Both the position numbers and the translations under genes were made by a program. The notes beneath the pieces are model-generated. The model ran no database searches and was not told the DNA's origin. It worked only from the letters and a program-made list of their open reading frames with translations. Positions 7,752-37,312 of a DNA stretch of 64,000 bases are shown piece after piece. Position 1 is the first letter of the stretch. Every line of letters begins with the position of its first letter. Source of the DNA: Deltaproteobacteria bacterium (lineage in GTDB: Bacteria > Desulfobacterota > Binatia > UBA12015); the NCBI GenBank assembly GCA_029262355.1, contig JAJCZO010000336.1, positions 1 to 64,000 on the forward strand, in the 5' to 3' direction.

Positions 7752-8081
7752 GGCGCAGCCTTAGCACAAACCGGCGATATCTCGCCGAAACCCGCTACTG
7801 GCTATGCGCCATGGGGGGTCGCGACGCACGCCATTTCGAACCCGCCGTGGCACCGGAGTTGCAGCTACGCACATTCGTTCCCGAGGCGGTTGAGGTGGAT
7901 GTGTTGTGGGGGACAGCTCGGGGAAATCGTCCGGACGGCGCGCAGGGAAGGTGCTGCAGCTGCGTGGCATAAACGGGTGTGGGGTTGAGGGGCGGGTGAT
8001 TCTCTGCCGCCGTCCCGGACGAAGCCTTGGGTGCTCGAGTCGGGCTTGCGCGCCTGACGGGCGTTCGCGAGAGTATCCGAC

Positions 8082-27988: not shown

Positions 27989-28658
27989 GCCTCCAAACAG
28001 ACGTGCTCGCGCGAGGAGTCTGTCCCGTGGCCCTGGGCGCTCGCGCGGGTCGTCCCCGCGAGTGCCACCGCAGCTGTGCCAAAGACGCTTTGCGATGTGG
28101 TGCGAGGATTGTCGCCGAACTGACACACGACCATCACCCAATGTTCGTCAAACCAGGCTTGCCTCGAGGGAGAATGGGCACACAATGAAGAACATGAAAC
28201 GCTCACAAGCAGACCAGCTCGCCCGGCAGAGACGCGCCCTGCGTCGCCTGGCGCGCCGGCGCACGCCGACGAGACTGGCTAGGCCCGAGGCAGATGCCGC
28301 AGGCGCGCCCGGAGCCTCGGATAGACTGCGCTCGGCCTGACCCACCTCGTCGCGTGCCGGAGACACCGCGGCGCGCGCTGGTGACAAACAGACGTTGGTT
28401 CCGACGACGCCACACCGGTTTCCCCGGCGAACGATGTGGCACCAAGGTTGCGTACTGCACTCTTCGTCCGCGTCCTTCGGAGTGGAGGTCGCGCGGATCG
28501 CGCCATGCGTCTGCAGCCCTAACTGGGGGTGGGGACGATGTGGTTCGACGGCAACCTCACCCGACACGGTTCACGAACTCGGGGTGCGCCGACCGCCCAT
28601 GCCCCCCAAGGCCACAGCGGTCGGCGCCCCTCACCTGGACCTCGCGCTCGGCGGATCG

Positions 28659-29081
28659 TCAATCTCCAATAGTTCCCGGTCCGTCCTCGCTGACGTCGAC
28701 CACGGCCCGCCTTCCATCCCCGCGGCCTCGTAGGAGGAGGAGGCTCCCGTCGCTCTCCTTGAGAGCTTCGCCGAATTGCGCGCCAGGGTCGCGAGCACCG
28801 GCACGACCCCGTCTCGATCGGCGGTGACCACCACCGAGGCCAGGTCGCCGTCGACTCCAGCCGCTCGCTGCGCCCCGAGAGACGCCCCCGACCCGACGGT
28901 ATTCCGCCATGCGTCGCCAAGGCCGAGCCCCGTCTGGTTTCTTGCCGGCCGGGGCGAAGCAGGTGCGCTGCGCGAACGATGCCGGACACGGCCGGTACAT
29001 CTCCCCGCACCGGCCGGGGCGGTTTGTGCCGACGGCCTGGCCCGAATCCGGCCTGGAACCGCAGGCCGCACAGAAAAGCAC
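28659..29081 (-). pseudogene. Frame-disrupted zinc-ribbon-type gene
   Basis: LFCAACGSRPDSGQAVGTNRPGRCGEMYRPC in one frame, GLGDAWRNTVGSGASLGAQRAAGVDGDLASVVVTADRDGVVPVLATLA in the next, then DPGAQFGEALKESDGSLLLLRGRGDGRRAVVDVSEDGPGTIGD* back in the first. Confidence 0.5.
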
Positions 29082-29249
29082 CCCGCCGCAATCGAAAACG
29101 CTTTACTGCAGACCGCTGCATAAGCGATTAGGCACCGAAGCCCTCTTCGCCATTTCGAGTCGGCAATTCTCCCGAGAATTCAACGGCTGTCCGCATCGGC
29201 GGTCGGATTGGTGGTGGCAGGGCGTTTGCGAAAGAAGCGGCACGCCCCG

Positions 29250-31331
29250 ATGACCAGCATACCCACAGACGCAGTCGGCCTCTCCTGGATGTCGGCGGCA
29301 ATCTATCTCGTTCCGGCACTGGTCTGGGCCATCCTCGCGGAGCGTACGTGGTGGATACGTCGAACCCGCAGGCCGAACAGCCGGTTGTACGATCTACTCC
29401 CGCTCGTCACCGGGTGCCTGGGCGTCCACTACTTCCTCTCCGGACTGACCGCGCTCTACCCGACGCCGGCCGGCCTCGTGCCACCGCTCTCCCTGTGTGT
29501 GCTGGGCGTGGCACGCGACACCTCGCTGATCTTCGCCGCGGCCAGCGCCCGCCACCTGCTGCGCTACTTCCCCGACGACGAGGATCCGCCGAGCACCGGC
29601 TGGCTCGTCGCGGTCTACGGGTCCGCGGCGCTGGTGGGGCTCGCCGCGGTGGTCTTCGCGAACAGCTCCTGGCTGGCCTATCAGATCTTCTACGAGGTCT
29701 TCCTCCTCGCGAACGTCGCGTTGGCAACCATGTACTGCTGGCGGGTCTCCGGGCGCGGCGGCTGGGGGCACGCTGGGCTGAGCTCGATACGGACCGCCGA
29801 CGTCCTGATCTTCACCGCTGGTCTGTTCGTTGCCGGCGTCCTCGTACACGGCAACTCGCTTGGGGAGGTCTGCCCGTGGAAGCAAACCCTCTGGGTCGTG
29901 TTGGGCAACGCGGGGCTCGGTCTGCTGCTCGCCATTCCGTTCGCGATGCGCATGCTGGGCGAAGTGCTCCGTACCTTCCTCGTGGCCGCGTGCCTGATCA
30001 GTGCGACGTTCGCCACATACTTCGGCGGGCAGTTTCTGCTCTCCCACGCCAGCGACGACGTCCAACGTGTCGGCACCGCGTCGATTCTCCTCCTTCTGCT
30101 GGTCGTGCTCGGCCCAGGCCAACGGTGGCTCCGTAGCTGCATCGATCGGCTCGGCTTCCGCCGAAGCAAAGTGCGCGAGTCCCAACTACACGCAGTGCTC
30201 CACACACTCTCCCCGGAACTCGGTGCCGTCGAATGCATGCGTCGCGCGCTGGCCGAGTTCATCATCGTCATGGAGGCCAAGGGTGCCGCCGTGCTCCTTT
30301 CTCCCGAGCGAACGGTCGTCCGCGTAGGCAACATCGAGACCAGCGAGATCCGGAATGCCTGGCCAGAAGGTTCCGCGGCAGATTCCCTCTACGTGTCCGG
30401 TCTCGGCTTGCTCGAGATGCGAGAGCTGTCCAAAGAGCTGCGCGAGCCCCTCATGAGGGCCAACGTCGTCGGGATCTTCCCCATCACGAGCCCGCGCCGC
30501 CGATGGGGCCATCTGTTCATGACCAGCGGGCTTCTGGGCACGGTCATCACCGACGAGGATGGCGACGTCATTCACGCCTTCACCGATCAGCTTGCGTTGG
30601 TGCTCGACTCGACGGAGTTGTTGGAGCGCGCCGTGTCGGTCGAGCGCTCGCTCGCCCACGCAGAGAAACTCTCCGCGATCGGGGAGCTTGCCGCGCGCAT
30701 CGCACACGAGATTCGAAACCCCGTAACGGCGGCACGAAGCCTCGCGCAGAGCCTCTGCGCCGAACCCGACTCACCCGACAACCCCGAGCATGCCGAGATC
30801 ATCCTGACCGAGCTCGAGCGGGTCGAACGACAGATCGCGGCCCTACTGCGCTTCGCGCGGCGCGACGAGCTCCGCCCAGAGCCCGTCGACCTCGGCTCAC
30901 TCGTGCGAGAGACCGTCGATCAGTTCCATCTGCGCCTCGAGGGTGCCGGAATCGGATTCGATCTCGAGGCGCCCGACGGCATCGTAGCCGAAGTCGACCG
31001 CGAGAAAATTCGCCAGGTGCTCATCAACCTAATCGAAAACTCGATCGATGCGGTCGTGAACACGAGCGGTGAACGCACCATCGCTCTGCGGGTCGGGCGT
31101 GAGAACGGCAGCGCGGAGGTTTCGGTCTCGGACAGCGGGCCCGGCGTTTCTGAGGATTCCCTGCCAAAGCTCTTCGAGCCGTTCTTCTCCCTCAAGACCC
31201 AGGGCACCGGCCTGGGCCTGGCGATCGTAAAACGTACCGTCGAGGCCCACGGCGGACAGGTCCACGCAGAATCGGGCCCCGGATCTGGGCTGGCGTTTCG
31301 CGTCGGCCTCCCCATCGCGAACAATGCCTGA
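29250..31331 (+). CDS. Multi-TM sensor histidine kinase, paralog 1
   Basis: Multiple N-terminal TM segments, GAF-like region, H-box ELAARIAHEIRNPVTAARSLAQ, N-box INLIENSIDAV, G-box TGLGLAIVKRTVEAHGG (tracked start 29208). Confidence 0.93.
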   Translation: MTSIPTDAVGLSWMSAAIYLVPALVWAILAERTWWIRRTRRPNSRLYDLLPLVTGCLGVHYFLSGLTALYPTPAGLVPPLSLCVLGVARDTSLIFAAASARHLLRYFPDDEDPPSTGWLVAVYGSAALVGLAAVVFANSSWLAYQIFYEVFLLANVALATMYCWRVSGRGGWGHAGLSSIRTADVLIFTAGLFVAGVLVHGNSLGEVCPWKQTLWVVLGNAGLGLLLAIPFAMRMLGEVLRTFLVAACLISATFATYFGGQFLLSHASDDVQRVGTASILLLLLVVLGPGQRWLRSCIDRLGFRRSKVRESQLHAVLHTLSPELGAVECMRRALAEFIIVMEAKGAAVLLSPERTVVRVGNIETSEIRNAWPEGSAADSLYVSGLGLLEMRELSKELREPLMRANVVGIFPITSPRRRWGHLFMTSGLLGTVITDEDGDVIHAFTDQLALVLDSTELLERAVSVERSLAHAEKLSAIGELAARIAHEIRNPVTAARSLAQSLCAEPDSPDNPEHAEIILTELERVERQIAALLRFARRDELRPEPVDLGSLVRETVDQFHLRLEGAGIGFDLEAPDGIVAEVDREKIRQVLINLIENSIDAVVNTSGERTIALRVGRENGSAEVSVSDSGPGVSEDSLPKLFEPFFSLKTQGTGLGLAIVKRTVEAHGGQVHAESGPGSGLAFRVGLPIANNA

Positions 31332-31370
31332 CATCCGGCGCGGCTTCGTGGGACTGGCGGAGAAGACTCT

Positions 31371-33452
31371 GTGAACATGCCCGAGCCTCTGTCGCTCGTC
31401 AGCGCGGCCATCAACCTCCTCGTATCCCTGATCTTTGGGATCATCGTTCAGGCCAACATCCAGACCTCGTTGCGACGCGGAACGTTCGCGCCACTCATCC
31501 TCGTCGCAACGCTCGTCTGCGCCTGCCTCTCGTTCGTCTTTGCGGTCTCGACGGTATTCGCACTGATCCCGGCTTCCGTTCACGCCTCGGGCTCGCCGGT
31601 GTTGATCGGCCTCTATGGGGTGTCCGACATCGTCACGTTCGTCGCCGTGGCGCTCTTCGCTCACCTCGTTCAGCTCTTGTCGGTACGCGAAGAGGGTCCC
31701 TCGCGCCGATGGCTGATCGTCAACTACAGCATTGCCGCGACGGTGGTTCTCGGCGCGATCCCGCTTCAGGGGATCGTTCACGAGCTTCCTCGTTTTCAGG
31801 CCGCTGGCGAAGCCCTGAAGTGGTCGTACGTGCTCGTCGTGACCACCCTGTCTGCCGTGCGGCTCGGCCGGGTCGCGAGTCGTGAGGAGTGGCGCCCCGG
31901 CCTCATGGGCACCGCGTCGCGCTCTGATTTCTGGGCGCTCGCTTTCGCGAGCGTCGGCGTCGGCGTCATGGTCGCGCTTCACCTGACCGGCAGCTGGGCC
32001 GAGCATCGGCCTGTCTTGAGTCTCATCGGTTCGGTACTCGGTCTCGCCATCGCGGCACCGTTCGTGGCGCGAAACCTCGGCATCGTCCTTTCGGGCCTCC
32101 TGTCGGCGATCGGCCTCCTCTCGGCCGTCGGCCTCGCGGTATACGCCGGAATCTGGCTGGGCGACGAGCTTCCCGTCGACCTGCGCCTACTCGCCCCACT
32201 CGCAACGATCCTCCTGACCCTCCTCGCACTTGGGCCAGGCCAGCCGGCACTGCTCGCGGTGATCGAACGCATCGTCTTTCGGCGCAGCCGACTGCGCCGA
32301 GAAGAGCTGGCCCACTTCCTTAGAAGTCTCTCCCCCGACCTCGGGCCGGGTGAGTGCACGGTTCGAGCCATCGAGGAGCTGCGAAGGGTACTGCATCTCC
32401 GCGGCGTCGCGCTGGTGTTTCGGGACGGGGGTGCGCTCGGCGTCGGAGACCTCGACGCCGAGGCCGTCGCACGCGAATGGCCAAAGGGCGCGGCCGCCGA
32501 TGGCCTCTTGGATCGTCCACGCTTCGGCGACGATCAAACGGGCCTGCCGCGCCGGGTGCGCGAGATCCTCAACGACCGAGACATCCTCGGCATCGTGGCC
32601 GTACGGGGCTCCAACCGCCTGTGGGGCCATCTGCTTCTTCGCACTGACCTAATCGCCACCGTCTATCGAGATGAGGGCACCGTTACGGCGGAGATCTTCG
32701 CAGACCAGCTCGCCGTGCTCCTCGACGCCGCGAGCCTTCTCGATCGCGCGGTAGAGATGGAACGAACGCTCGCCCATTCCGAGAAGCTGGCCGCAATGGG
32801 CGAACTCTCTGCCCGAGTCGTGCACGACATTCGTAATCCAATCACGGCCGCGCGCAGCCTCGCCCAACAGCTCGCAAGCGAACCCGGAGCCGACGAAGCC
32901 CACGGCATCATCGTCGAGGAACTCGAACGGGTAGAAAGCCACGTCGCCGAGCTCCTGCGATTCTCGCGCCGCGACGAACTCGACCGCCAGCCGGTCGACC
33001 TCGCCTCGCTGGTACAGGAAACGGTCGCGCGGCTGCGAGGGCGTCTCGAAAGCGCCGACATCCAGGTGAGCATCTCGGGCCCCGGCGTACTCGTCATCTC
33101 CGCCGACCGGGAGAAGCTACGCCATGTCCTGATCAACCTGATCGAGAACGCGGCCGATGCCCTCTCGGACAACGGTCCGCACCGACGCATCGCGGTTGCT
33201 CTCGAGAGCAGCAAGGATCGATCGCGCCTACGCGTGAGCGACAACGGACCAGGAATCCCCGAGGTCGCCCTCCAACAGATTTTCGAGCCCTTCGTCTCGT
33301 CGAAGTCAGAAGGCACCGGCCTCGGCCTCGCAATCGTGAAGCGAACGATCGAGGCGCACGGGGGGCACATCGCGGTGGCCAGCAACGACGGCGACGGCGT
33401 ATCGTTCGTGGTCGACCTTCCCACTGGCGAAGCGGCGAAGGGGAGCGCATGA
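31371..33452 (+). CDS. Multi-TM sensor histidine kinase, paralog 2
   Basis: H-box ELSARVVHDIRNPITAARSLAQ, INLIENAADAL, TGLGLAIVKRTIEAHGG. Confidence 0.93.
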   Translation: MNMPEPLSLVSAAINLLVSLIFGIIVQANIQTSLRRGTFAPLILVATLVCACLSFVFAVSTVFALIPASVHASGSPVLIGLYGVSDIVTFVAVALFAHLVQLLSVREEGPSRRWLIVNYSIAATVVLGAIPLQGIVHELPRFQAAGEALKWSYVLVVTTLSAVRLGRVASREEWRPGLMGTASRSDFWALAFASVGVGVMVALHLTGSWAEHRPVLSLIGSVLGLAIAAPFVARNLGIVLSGLLSAIGLLSAVGLAVYAGIWLGDELPVDLRLLAPLATILLTLLALGPGQPALLAVIERIVFRRSRLRREELAHFLRSLSPDLGPGECTVRAIEELRRVLHLRGVALVFRDGGALGVGDLDAEAVAREWPKGAAADGLLDRPRFGDDQTGLPRRVREILNDRDILGIVAVRGSNRLWGHLLLRTDLIATVYRDEGTVTAEIFADQLAVLLDAASLLDRAVEMERTLAHSEKLAAMGELSARVVHDIRNPITAARSLAQQLASEPGADEAHGIIVEELERVESHVAELLRFSRRDELDRQPVDLASLVQETVARLRGRLESADIQVSISGPGVLVISADREKLRHVLINLIENAADALSDNGPHRRIAVALESSKDRSRLRVSDNGPGIPEVALQQIFEPFVSSKSEGTGLGLAIVKRTIEAHGGHIAVASNDGDGVSFVVDLPTGEAAKGSA

Positions 33453-35533
33453 CCGGCTGGCCGATCCCAGCGCTCGCACTATCCGGTGCGAGCTTCCTCG
33501 TGATGCTTCTGTGGATGGTCATCACTCACGGATGCGTCGAGACGCTTCGAACGGGGCGCTCGCGCAGACCGATCTCCGGCTTACAACCGGTCGTCTGCCT
33601 GGCCGTCACCGAGGTCTACTTCACCGCGGGGCTCTTTCCCCTTCTGCCCCAAGCACCCGAGAGCCTCTCGTCCAACCTGCTGTACCTGTATCTGCTGAAC
33701 GACATCGCCGGCTTCACCGGCGTCGCCGTGTTCCATCACCTGAGCTGGTACTTCCAGCGCGATCCCGGTCCGCCGTCACGTGCCTGGCTCACGATCAACT
33801 ATGGGGTTCTCGGGCTGTTGATCTTCGCGAGCACATTCCTGCCGATCCCCAGCCTTGCGGACAACGTCGGCCTCGTGGGTCTGTACGGGATCGGGACATG
33901 GACCTACCTGTTCGTGATGCTCGCCCTGAGCTTGCGTCGCGTGGCCTGGCGCGCACGCAACACCGGCTGGCGACCCGGCGCGTTCGGACCCGCGTCGCGC
34001 CCCGACCTGATCATCCTGCGCATCTCCCTCGTACTGCTGGTGCTGGCCCTCGGCGTCTTCGTCGCGGGCGCCCGGGTCTCCTACCAAATGTTGCTCGGGT
34101 GGACGCTGGTCTTGTTCGGGGCCATCGTTGGCGTGCCCTTCGCGGTGCGGAACCTCGGAGCAGTGATTCGAGACAGCCTCGCCACCCTCGGAACGGTGGG
34201 TGCGTCGATGGCATGGATCGGCATCTCGTGGGCCACCACGGCCGCGGCCGAACCGGAGGCGCGTGGGGCGCTACTCGTATTCCTGATCGCAGTCGGACTC
34301 TCGACTTCCTTCTTGTTCGTGCAGCCTTGGCTCTGGCGGCTCCTGGATCGCACGATCTTCGGCCGCAGTCATGACCAACAGGCCGCTCTGCAACGCGCAC
34401 TCCATCGCCTCTCGCCCGAGCTCGGCGCGAAGACATGCACCGAGCGCGCTCTGGCGGATCTCGTAGCCGTGCTCCAGATCGAGGGTGTGGCGCTGATGCT
34501 GCGTGACGGCGGTCAAATCGTAGAAGGGCGCTTCGACGTCGAGGAGCTGGCGAAGCTTTGGCCGCGAGGAGAGGCCGCCGACACGCTCCCGCCGCGAACC
34601 CTGATCGGCGGAGAACTCGCCGAGCTTCCGGAGGACTTGGCCGACGCCCGGATGGATGCCGGTGTCGTCGCGGTCGTTGCCGTCCAGGGCTCGACGCGTC
34701 TGTGGGGGCACCTGCTCCTCACCACCGACCTGGTCGGCGCGAGCCTCCGCGAGGAAGATCTCCGCGCCATCGAGGCCTTCGCCGATCAGCTGGGCCTCCT
34801 GCTGGACGGCGCGGCCCTGCTCGCACGCACCGTCTCCATCGAGCGATCGCTCGCTCACACCGAGAAGCTGGCCGTGATCGGGGAGCTCACCGCGCGGGTC
34901 GCACACGAGATTCGCAATCCCGCCACCGCCGCCCGAAGCCTGGCCCAGCAACTCGCGCGCGAAGGCGGCCCTCACCGAGAGGAGCTGGGGATCATCCTGG
35001 GTGAGCTCGAGCGAATCGAACGGCAAGTCGCCGACCTCTTGCAGTTCGGACGTCGCGACGACTTCGAGCTCTCGTCGATCGACTTCGGGGAACTCGTCCG
35101 GTCGACCGCCGACGACATGAGACCGAGCCTGCGCGCCTCCGGGGTCGAGCTCGAGGTCTCCGTCGAACCGGGAGTGCGGGGTCCGGGCGATCCCGAGAGG
35201 CTACGTCAGGTCTTGATCAACCTCGTCGAGAACGCCCGAGACGCCTTGACGCAATCCGATACAGGGCGCCTGGTCGCGATCGCGGTGGGCAACGGGAGTG
35301 ATCGGGTCTCCCTCGAGGTGAGCGATGACGGTCCGGGCGTGGACGACGCTACACTGGAGCGCCTCTTCGAACCCTTCTTCTCGAAGAAGCACGAGGGGAC
35401 CGGCCTCGGACTCGCGATTGCCAAGCGCACCATCGAGGCCCACGGCGGCCACATCGAAGCACGCCGCCGGTCTGCCGGCGGCATGCGGTTTCGCATCCAA
35501 CTACCCCGCACGACGGCCGAGGGCGACGGATGA
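33449..35533 (+). CDS. Multi-TM sensor histidine kinase, paralog 3
   Basis: ATGA overlap with paralog 2; H-box ELTARVAHEIRNPATAARSLAQ, INLVENARDAL, TGLGLAIAKRTIEAHGG. Confidence 0.93.
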   Translation: MTGWPIPALALSGASFLVMLLWMVITHGCVETLRTGRSRRPISGLQPVVCLAVTEVYFTAGLFPLLPQAPESLSSNLLYLYLLNDIAGFTGVAVFHHLSWYFQRDPGPPSRAWLTINYGVLGLLIFASTFLPIPSLADNVGLVGLYGIGTWTYLFVMLALSLRRVAWRARNTGWRPGAFGPASRPDLIILRISLVLLVLALGVFVAGARVSYQMLLGWTLVLFGAIVGVPFAVRNLGAVIRDSLATLGTVGASMAWIGISWATTAAAEPEARGALLVFLIAVGLSTSFLFVQPWLWRLLDRTIFGRSHDQQAALQRALHRLSPELGAKTCTERALADLVAVLQIEGVALMLRDGGQIVEGRFDVEELAKLWPRGEAADTLPPRTLIGGELAELPEDLADARMDAGVVAVVAVQGSTRLWGHLLLTTDLVGASLREEDLRAIEAFADQLGLLLDGAALLARTVSIERSLAHTEKLAVIGELTARVAHEIRNPATAARSLAQQLAREGGPHREELGIILGELERIERQVADLLQFGRRDDFELSSIDFGELVRSTADDMRPSLRASGVELEVSVEPGVRGPGDPERLRQVLINLVENARDALTQSDTGRLVAIAVGNGSDRVSLEVSDDGPGVDDATLERLFEPFFSKKHEGTGLGLAIAKRTIEAHGGHIEARRRSAGGMRFRIQLPRTTAEGDG

Positions 35534-35617
35534 AGTCACATCGCACAGACGCCGCCAACGGGTCGGGCAACCGGTTCGAGATGGACCTACCACTCACCAC
35601 CACTGCAAGGGGAAACC

Positions 35618-37039
35618 ATGAAGCCAGCCATTCTGGTCGTCGATGACGAACGCGCGATCTGCATCGCCATTTCGCGCCTGCTGAACGCACGCGGCTACGA
35701 AGTCGACACCGCTCCCTCCGCGGAGGCGGCGGTGGCGAAGCTCGAACACAGCGTCTTCCACCTCATCATCACCGACCTCAGCATGGGCAAGATGTCCGGG
35801 ATGGACCTTCTCGAATGGGTGAAACAGCACTCGCCCGAAACCGCGGTGATCATGATCACCGCGTACGGGTCTGAGAAGACCGCCGTCGAAGCCATGAAAC
35901 TCGGAGCCTCGGACTACGTCCCGAAGCCCTTCGACAACGACGAGCTCGAGCTGAAGGTCGCACGCGTTCTCGAGACGATGGCCGACAAACGCGAGAACCG
36001 CCTCCTGCGCGAGCAAGTGGAGAGCACGTATCGGTTCGAGAACCTGATCGGCAAGAGCCCGAGCATGCAGCGGGTCTTCGACGTCATCCGCCGAGTCGCC
36101 GACAGCGATCTGACCGTGCTGGTCCGCGGGCCGAGCGGCACCGGCAAGGAGCTCGTCGCGAACGCGATCCACTACAACAGCCCGCGACGGAGCAAGGCCC
36201 TCATCAAGGTCAACTGCGCCGCCTTCTCCAGGGAACTCGTGGAGAGCGAGCTCTTCGGTCACGAGAAGGGCGCCTTCACCGGCGCGACCGCCACCAAGGA
36301 GGGGAAGTTCGAGATCGCCGACGGCGGAACGCTCTTCCTCGACGAGATCGGCGATATGGCCTTAGAGACGCAGGCAAAGATCCTGAGGGTTCTCCAGGAG
36401 AAAGAGCTGGAACGGGTGGGCGGCAACCGCACGATCAAGGTCGACGTCCGGGTCATTGCGGCCACCAACCAGGACCTCGAGGCGAAGGCCAAGGAGGGGA
36501 CCTTCCGCGAGGATCTGTTTTACCGCCTGAACGTGGTTCCGATCCTCCTGCCGGCACTCAATGAGCGCCCCGGCGACATGCCGCTTCTCATCGCGCACTT
36601 CCTGGAGAAGGTCGCCGACCGCCTCGAGCGCCCCAAGAAGGACCTCTCGCGAGCAGCGATGCGCGCACTCCTGGCCCATGAATGGAAGGGGAACGTTCGC
36701 GAACTCGAGCACGCGATCGAGCAGGCCGTCGTGCTCGCGGGTGGTGAGGAGATCGAACCGGCCGACCTTCCAGCCGCCATGGGCTCGAGCAGTCCGATAG
36801 CCGCCCTCAGTAGCAGTGGCGCCGATGGGGACGACGCGCAGGCGACCACGTTCAAGGAAGCCAAACAGCGCGTGGTGGCGGGATTCGAGCGTCAGTTCAT
36901 CGAAGAGGCTCTCGAACGCCACAGCGGCAACATATCGAAGGCGGCAGAGGAGATGGGAATGTATCGCCAACACCTCCAGGGCAAGCTCACCGAGTACGCG
37001 ATCGACGCATCGGCCTACCGAATCAAGAAGAAGGGGTAG
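35618..37039 (+). CDS. NtrC-family sigma54-dependent response regulator
   Basis: Receiver ILVVDDERAICIA...IITDLSMGKMSG; Walker A GPSGTGKE; GAFTGA; GTLFLDEIG; Fis-type HTH ERHSGNISKAAEEMGMYRQHLQGKL. Confidence 0.95.
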   Translation: MKPAILVVDDERAICIAISRLLNARGYEVDTAPSAEAAVAKLEHSVFHLIITDLSMGKMSGMDLLEWVKQHSPETAVIMITAYGSEKTAVEAMKLGASDYVPKPFDNDELELKVARVLETMADKRENRLLREQVESTYRFENLIGKSPSMQRVFDVIRRVADSDLTVLVRGPSGTGKELVANAIHYNSPRRSKALIKVNCAAFSRELVESELFGHEKGAFTGATATKEGKFEIADGGTLFLDEIGDMALETQAKILRVLQEKELERVGGNRTIKVDVRVIAATNQDLEAKAKEGTFREDLFYRLNVVPILLPALNERPGDMPLLIAHFLEKVADRLERPKKDLSRAAMRALLAHEWKGNVRELEHAIEQAVVLAGGEEIEPADLPAAMGSSSPIAALSSSGADGDDAQATTFKEAKQRVVAGFERQFIEEALERHSGNISKAAEEMGMYRQHLQGKLTEYAIDASAYRIKKKG

Positions 37040-37132
37040 TGCACCGCGCGTCTGACATGGCTGGTGCGCGACCGGAACAACATCAAGTCCTCACACGATG
37101 TGTCCGATACGCTTGTCAGGGGCCCGGAGCGC

Positions 37133-37312
37133 ATGACGCGCTGGAAGAAGCGGATCGTGAAAACAATCGTGTACGGAATCTTCTTCGGGGCTGCTGGCAT
37201 GTATCTCTACATGACACAGGGTGCACTGCTGGACTCGAGCATCACTGCGATGTTGCAGTGGCGAGATGCTTCCAAGCAGTCGGTCTACGGGTACGGCGGC
37301 AACAACGGGTAG
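37133..37312 (+). CDS. Small single-TM protein downstream of the regulator
   Basis: MTRWKKRIVKTIVYGIFFGAAGMYLYMTQGALLDSSITAMLQWRDASKQSVYGYGGNNG; gcccggag upstream; positive-inside TM. Confidence 0.6.
   Translation: MTRWKKRIVKTIVYGIFFGAAGMYLYMTQGALLDSSITAMLQWRDASKQSVYGYGGNNG

Follow-up and report, generated by a model that had tools for sequence, protein, structure and literature searches.

The window, a stretch of 64,000 nucleotides from a deltaproteobacterial draft genome (G000; assembly of 7.77 Mb in 453 contigs, about 93% complete), contains a block of five genes on one strand, in which three histidine kinases precede a single response regulator (RR) and a small membrane protein:

29250 to 31331, forward strand: K1, ATG start, 693 aa; nine-helix membrane sensor, GAF-like domain and HisKA-HATPase kinase.
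31371 to 33452, forward strand: K2, GTG start, 693 aa; architecture as in K1.
33449 to 35533, forward strand: K3, ATG start, 694 aa; architecture as in K1; overlaps K2 by 4 nt.
35618 to 37039, forward strand: RR, 473 aa; receiver, AAA+ domain (GAFTGA) and Fis-type helix-turn-helix.
37133 to 37312, forward strand: small ORF, 59 aa from its ATG, with a single transmembrane segment.

These ORF coordinates agree with the initial annotation, which had described three kinases of about 690 residues in a row, followed by an NtrC-type sigma54 regulator and a 59-aa ORF. Each of the kinases scores for HisKA and HATPase_c in Pfam, and the assignment of RR as a receiver-AAA-Fis regulator is borne out by its matches to Response_reg, Sigma54_activat (GAFTGA), AAA-lid and HTH_8/Fis. 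The H, N, D and G boxes are intact in K1, K2 and K3, as are the D-T-K residues of the receiver, Walker A and GAFTGA in RR. By its HisKA-HATPase kinase beside a receiver-AAA+(GAFTGA)-Fis regulator, the block belongs with NtrB/NtrC-type systems of the AtoS-AtoC class. The assembly harbors some 30 sigma54-activator domains, and rpoN is present.

How are the three kinases related to each other? K2 and K3 are 38-39% identical to K1 overall, and identity among the three varies by region, from 22-28% in the transmembrane part and 34-45% in the GAF-like domain to 44-49% in the CA and 63-64% in the DHp domain. Given this difference between the transmembrane and DHp parts, the earlier statement that the transmembrane domains differ was right. 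The label 'GAF-like' is also fair: Pfam GAF is matched by 7 of 17 family members (best 1.9e-5) and has no match in K1 itself, residues about 326-425 of which form an alpha/beta domain in the AlphaFold model. The near-identical H and G boxes pointed out previously are indeed found in K1-K3 but are partly generic for AtoS/ZraS-type kinases. A profile of the N-terminal part of the array kinases matches K1, K2 and K3 only in the whole assembly, and a kinase-core profile gives them 418-423 bits versus 207 bits for the next kinase, which is encoded on contig C426 next to an activator of its own; the similarity of K1-K3 is therefore not due to chance. When a tree was built that also contained 19 further kinases of this genome, the array-family kinases all fell into a single clade (97/89) that excludes the C426 kinase. 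Neither the core scores nor the tree thus place any array kinase closer to unlinked kinases having their own regulators, and judged by sequence K1-K3 are true paralogues, and no unlinked kinase of G000 is as close to any of them as they are to one another.

The AlphaFold model of K1 (pLDDT 79.7) comprises nine N-terminal helices, the GAF-like alpha/beta domain and a ZraS-like core; modeled alone, the N-terminal part reaches a pLDDT of 86.6 and a pTM of 0.82. The kinase core has its best match in the ZraS crystal structure 9jfj, and for the sensor a PDB search brought up no relative at E<0.001. Seven-TM receptors and rhodopsins, the best PDB matches, were rejected as the sensor fold, as all have E>0.02 and a TM-score of at most about 0.5 and share topology only.

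Of the 148 genomes examined within the class, 14 carry the kinase family, and no further members were found outside the class in 395 genomes sampled from the phylum; with five candidates scored per genome, this distribution is a lower bound. All genomes compared are draft assemblies, and the named relatives are metagenome-assembled genomes. G001, G002 and G003 belong to the same genus as G000, and conservation of the three-to-one block across genomes extends to one of these congeners. G002 keeps the order K1-K2-K3-RR-small ORF, with K1 split over two contigs, with 4-nt overlaps joining successive genes, and flanked, as in G000, by genes for a sulfatase, a TPP enzyme and a luciferase-like protein. 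The block of G003 consists of K2 and RR, with K3 reduced, by an in-frame internal deletion, to a stub in which the start is joined to the C-terminal tail (L037:7619-7858); in our reading, a short K1-like start precedes K2. G001 (97% complete) retains as its sole kinase trace a degenerate 185-aa C-terminal piece without an H-box (L114:9985-10542), followed by an intact RR (L114:10576-11994; 88% identical; dN 0.07, dS 1.09) and an intact small ORF. The sigma54-contact loop of this RR reads GSFTGA, not GAFTGA, and it may still work or may mark decay. Elsewhere in the family, two kinases accompany RR in G007, G011 and G045, and one kinase does so in G008, G012, G020, G025, G032, G038, G039 and G052; G005 has an RR orthologue (71%) without a kinase nearby. 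The single- and double-kinase relatives are nearly always adjoined by an orthologous RR. The RR orthologues of the three congeners are 84-90% identical to that of G000, and the regulator is more conserved (88-90% identity, dN 0.07) than the kinases (71-76% identity, dN 0.17-0.23) at similar dS. Several individual loci deserve mention. G003 has a diverged solo kinase of the family (L038:6651-8762), which has a sigma54-like element of its own and lacks a neighboring regulator, and a TPP-enzyme gene of G001 has shrunk to its start and end pieces (L114:14603-14844), which recalls K3 of G003. The K1 orthologue of G007 was suspected to be a pseudokinase from its varying boxes, and inspection gave no support for this.

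A full-length tree, for which the two contig pieces of the G002 K1 were joined, resolves three groups. One unites K1 of G000 and G002 with G007_Ka and G011_Ka (100/100), a second comprises K2 of G000, G002 and G003 (100/100), and the third combines the K3 proteins of G000 and G002 with G007_Kb, G011_Kb and the lone kinase found in G008/G012 (100/99). The K2 group branches as sister to this entire K3 group (100/99), and a topology constrained to unite K2 with K3 within the genus is rejected (p=0.005, for a group named after the tree was seen). This topology suggests that the three kinases probably predate the split of the genera and that their duplication is not recent, so that members of the family with two, one or zero kinases would represent losses, the kinases probably having disappeared in different combinations across the family. 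For the independent kinase pair of G045, an N-terminal tree rejects sister status (p=1.7e-5) and a C-terminal tree joins both, a C-terminal conflict that would fit gene conversion of the kinase core and is not significant (p=0.18).

The small membrane ORF, which the initial annotation counted as part of the block, does follow RR, and it is well conserved among congeners (dN 0.05, dS 1.0-1.2), but it is not specific to the array. Because it occurs family-wide, including in genomes without any array kinases, a role as a dedicated accessory protein was ruled out as specific, and the ORF is probably a neighbor. No good sigma54 element precedes it. Related single-TM proteins of 59 aa are often found near luciferase-like and TPP genes.

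The region upstream of K1 contains four further features, of which the promoter, the palindrome and the remnant of a fourth, divergently transcribed kinase are additions to the initial annotation:

29215 to 29230, forward strand: -24/-12 sigma54 promoter element TGGCAGGGCGTTTGCG, 20 nt before the K1 start and 98 bp after the start of the predicted enhancer.
29117 to 29134, palindromic, no strand: predicted enhancer (UAS) TGCATAAGCGATTAGGCA with dyad TGCNTAANCGNTTANGCA, conserved.
29101 to 29110, forward strand: CTTTACTGCA, possible extra half-site of the enhancer, just before the palindrome and likewise placed in G002 and G003.
28560 to 28933, reverse strand: decayed, frame-shifted remnant of a fourth histidine kinase (ATPase-domain stretch), found with a profile of divergent kinases.

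Chance alone would place about 6e-4 sigma54 elements in the 45 positions preceding K1, and an equivalent element precedes the first kinase in at least 10 related genomes (G002, G003, G007, G008, G020, G025, G032, G038, G039, G045 and G052). With up to 3 mismatches allowed, the palindrome matches nowhere else in the window; it lies 98 bp before the same element in G000, G002 and G003 and is the single site within 1 mismatch in each of these genomes. Related sites precede the elements of G008, G025 and G045; the palindrome is not recognizable in G007, G011 and G039 and is absent in G001. A palindrome search for a regulon in trans, covering G000 and 14 related genomes, yielded no trans targets in G000 and, in the congeners, no second site having a sigma54 element at a suitable position, and sites with two mismatches looked like background. 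In sequence, the region thus displays the layout used by NtrC-class regulators, a -24/-12 promoter for sigma54 with an upstream enhancer. As palindrome and element occupy the same place in the congeners, as the palindrome is unique per genome, and as enhancer, promoter and RR's own operon fit together, RR probably turns on the very operon that encodes it, a case of positive autoregulation. Two more strong sigma54-like elements are located at 28437-28452 (+) and 7848-7863 (+), with 0.92 and 0.96 of the maximum score, and similar ones are found in G001 at L114:9418 and L114:1224. A very basic 51-codon ORF (MKNMKRSQADQLARQRRALRRLARRR...) lies at 28186-28341 (+), and a similar ORF is present in G001 near L114:9150.

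The kinase remnant across the intergenic region obtains 23.2 bits in one frame and 9.0 bits in another, as compared with 2.6 bits for the best of 200 dinucleotide shuffles; the profile was made from the divergent kinases of G002 and G003 and a G032 kinase. This divergent kinase is intact at L036:1460-3517, its G003 copy (L037:2849-5047) frame-shifts after DGPGI, and G001 has a fragment. A sigma54-like element on the opposite strand faces the kinase in G002 and G003, an AurF-type diiron oxygenase in G025, G032, G045 and G052, an AurF-type oxygenase with small TM ORFs in G039, a Coq4-like protein in G038, and a small TM protein followed by an amidohydrolase in G011. The same intergenic region seems to drive divergent genes as well in relatives. 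Divergent genes with their own sigma54-like elements lie at L048:12423-13385, L044:9266-10869, L042:5284-5511 and L047:7545-8312, loci that encode AurF oxygenase with small TM proteins, a small TM protein and a Coq4-like protein. It is possible that the divergent AurF, small TM and Coq4-like genes are ancestral outputs of the system.

Comparison with described systems places the array near AtoS/AtoC and ZraS/ZraR. For the K1 core the top-scoring profiles are those of AtoS and ZraS, and for RR it is that of AtoC, all of them short of the NCBIfam equivalog cut-offs (195.5 of 646, 160 of 479 and 474.6 of 714 bits). Unlike these systems, the array has a nine-helix sensor with a GAF-like domain and three kinases per regulator. 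Several sensors feed one receiver or phosphotransfer protein in KinA-KinE/Spo0F and in LuxN, LuxPQ/LuxU (PMC12471899). In contrast to those, the array kinases lie in tandem as paralogues within a single operon that also encodes a sigma54 activator; autoregulation is probable, and no phosphorelay intermediate was seen. A resemblance to PrsK/PrsR of PEP-CTERM systems had also been proposed, and the multi-TM sensor, GAF-like region and sigma54 Fis-type regulator are indeed alike. The PrsK profile matches K1 residues 256-688, and another contig of G000 has a weak partial exosortase-like match (PF09721, 36.7 bits). However, both NCBIfam profiles stay far below cut-off (TIGR02916, 109.7, 113.4 and 85.7 of 300 bits for the kinases; TIGR02915, 404 of 502.6 bits for the regulator), PrsK/PrsR has one kinase only, and the exopolysaccharide genes that are usually near it (PMC1569441) were not seen at the array. 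Likeness does not amount to membership here, and a PrsK/PrsR-type identity of the array is highly improbable. We found no paper describing the three-kinase array in the open literature.

How might such an array operate? We envision a scenario whereby three ancient paralogous kinases with diverged nine-helix sensors and a shared AtoS/ZraS-type core phosphorylate one NtrC-type RR, which would bind the predicted palindrome and, together with sigma54 at the -24/-12 element, switch on its own kinase-regulator operon. The outcome would be a switch with positive feedback, which each of the three inputs could set on its own; the divergent gene has decayed in G000, whereas in relatives the intergenic region would drive divergent genes too. 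An autoregulated many-to-one two-component operon is, in our view, the best explanation and a rather likely one. It rests on comparison, being supported by gene order, the shared core and the orthologue patterns. Of the sensor array on one sigma54 output that was suggested initially, paralogy, intactness and conservation of the block have held up, and integration of the inputs is the part that depends on such comparison; the suggested heterodimers are hypothetical. The contact positions speak both for and against it: positions H+8/H+11 of the DHp contacts are A/S in K1, K2 and K3 and H+15 is S/Q/Q, but these three contacts (A,S,Q) and most contacts of RR also fit the unlinked AtoS-type pair on C426, so that the pathway may lack insulation.

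Conceivably, one or two kinases are the true partner of RR, and the rest are left over from duplication and have a different partner, or serve as phosphatases or dimer partners. Kinases are readily lost, since G003 has K2 and a K3 stub, G008 has K3 only, G007 lacks K2 and G001 lacks all, and a single kinase seems to be enough beside RR in some lineages. Yet K1-K3 are all intact and conserved between G000 and G002 (dN 0.17-0.18 at dS 1.2 for K2 and K3; dN 0.23 at dS 0.96 for the K1 N-terminus), and different lineages retain different kinases, which argues that each can serve RR; we therefore regard this alternative as unlikely. An equally unlikely reading holds that RR acts largely without the array kinases, as an orphan or cross-fed regulator for which the array is an optional input. 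It draws on G001, where kinases and palindrome are gone and RR persists under the constraint given above, and on the kinase-less orthologue of G005. Most related RRs nevertheless adjoin such a kinase, and G001, with its altered loop, may represent an early stage of loss. The survival of RR without kinases in G001 and G005 is the point that is explained least well. Somewhat more plausible, though still tentative, is the notion of a 'plug-in' array: kinases with interchangeable cores would be added by gene duplication and dropped by in-frame deletion from one autoregulated sigma54 switch, leaving the operon unbroken, and the regulator could outlive all kinases when fed by other sources.

NtrC-type two-component systems are an ordinary class of machinery, and many-to-one signaling is already known; the arrangement is nonetheless unusual and informative, and a tandem three-kinase sigma54 array is a new form of it. 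For a hitherto undescribed sigma54 activator, it supplies a binding motif and autoregulation, both of them probable. In most cases, the wiring of new, duplication-derived inputs into an existing two-component pathway is deduced from insulated pairs. The present family displays three, two, one and zero kinases beside the same orthologous RR, together with a predicted site and promoter, and kinase gain and loss, sensor divergence and persistence of the regulator thereby become directly testable. With sensors that come and go and a switch that stays, the family offers a natural experiment on adding inputs to a circuit and dropping them from it.
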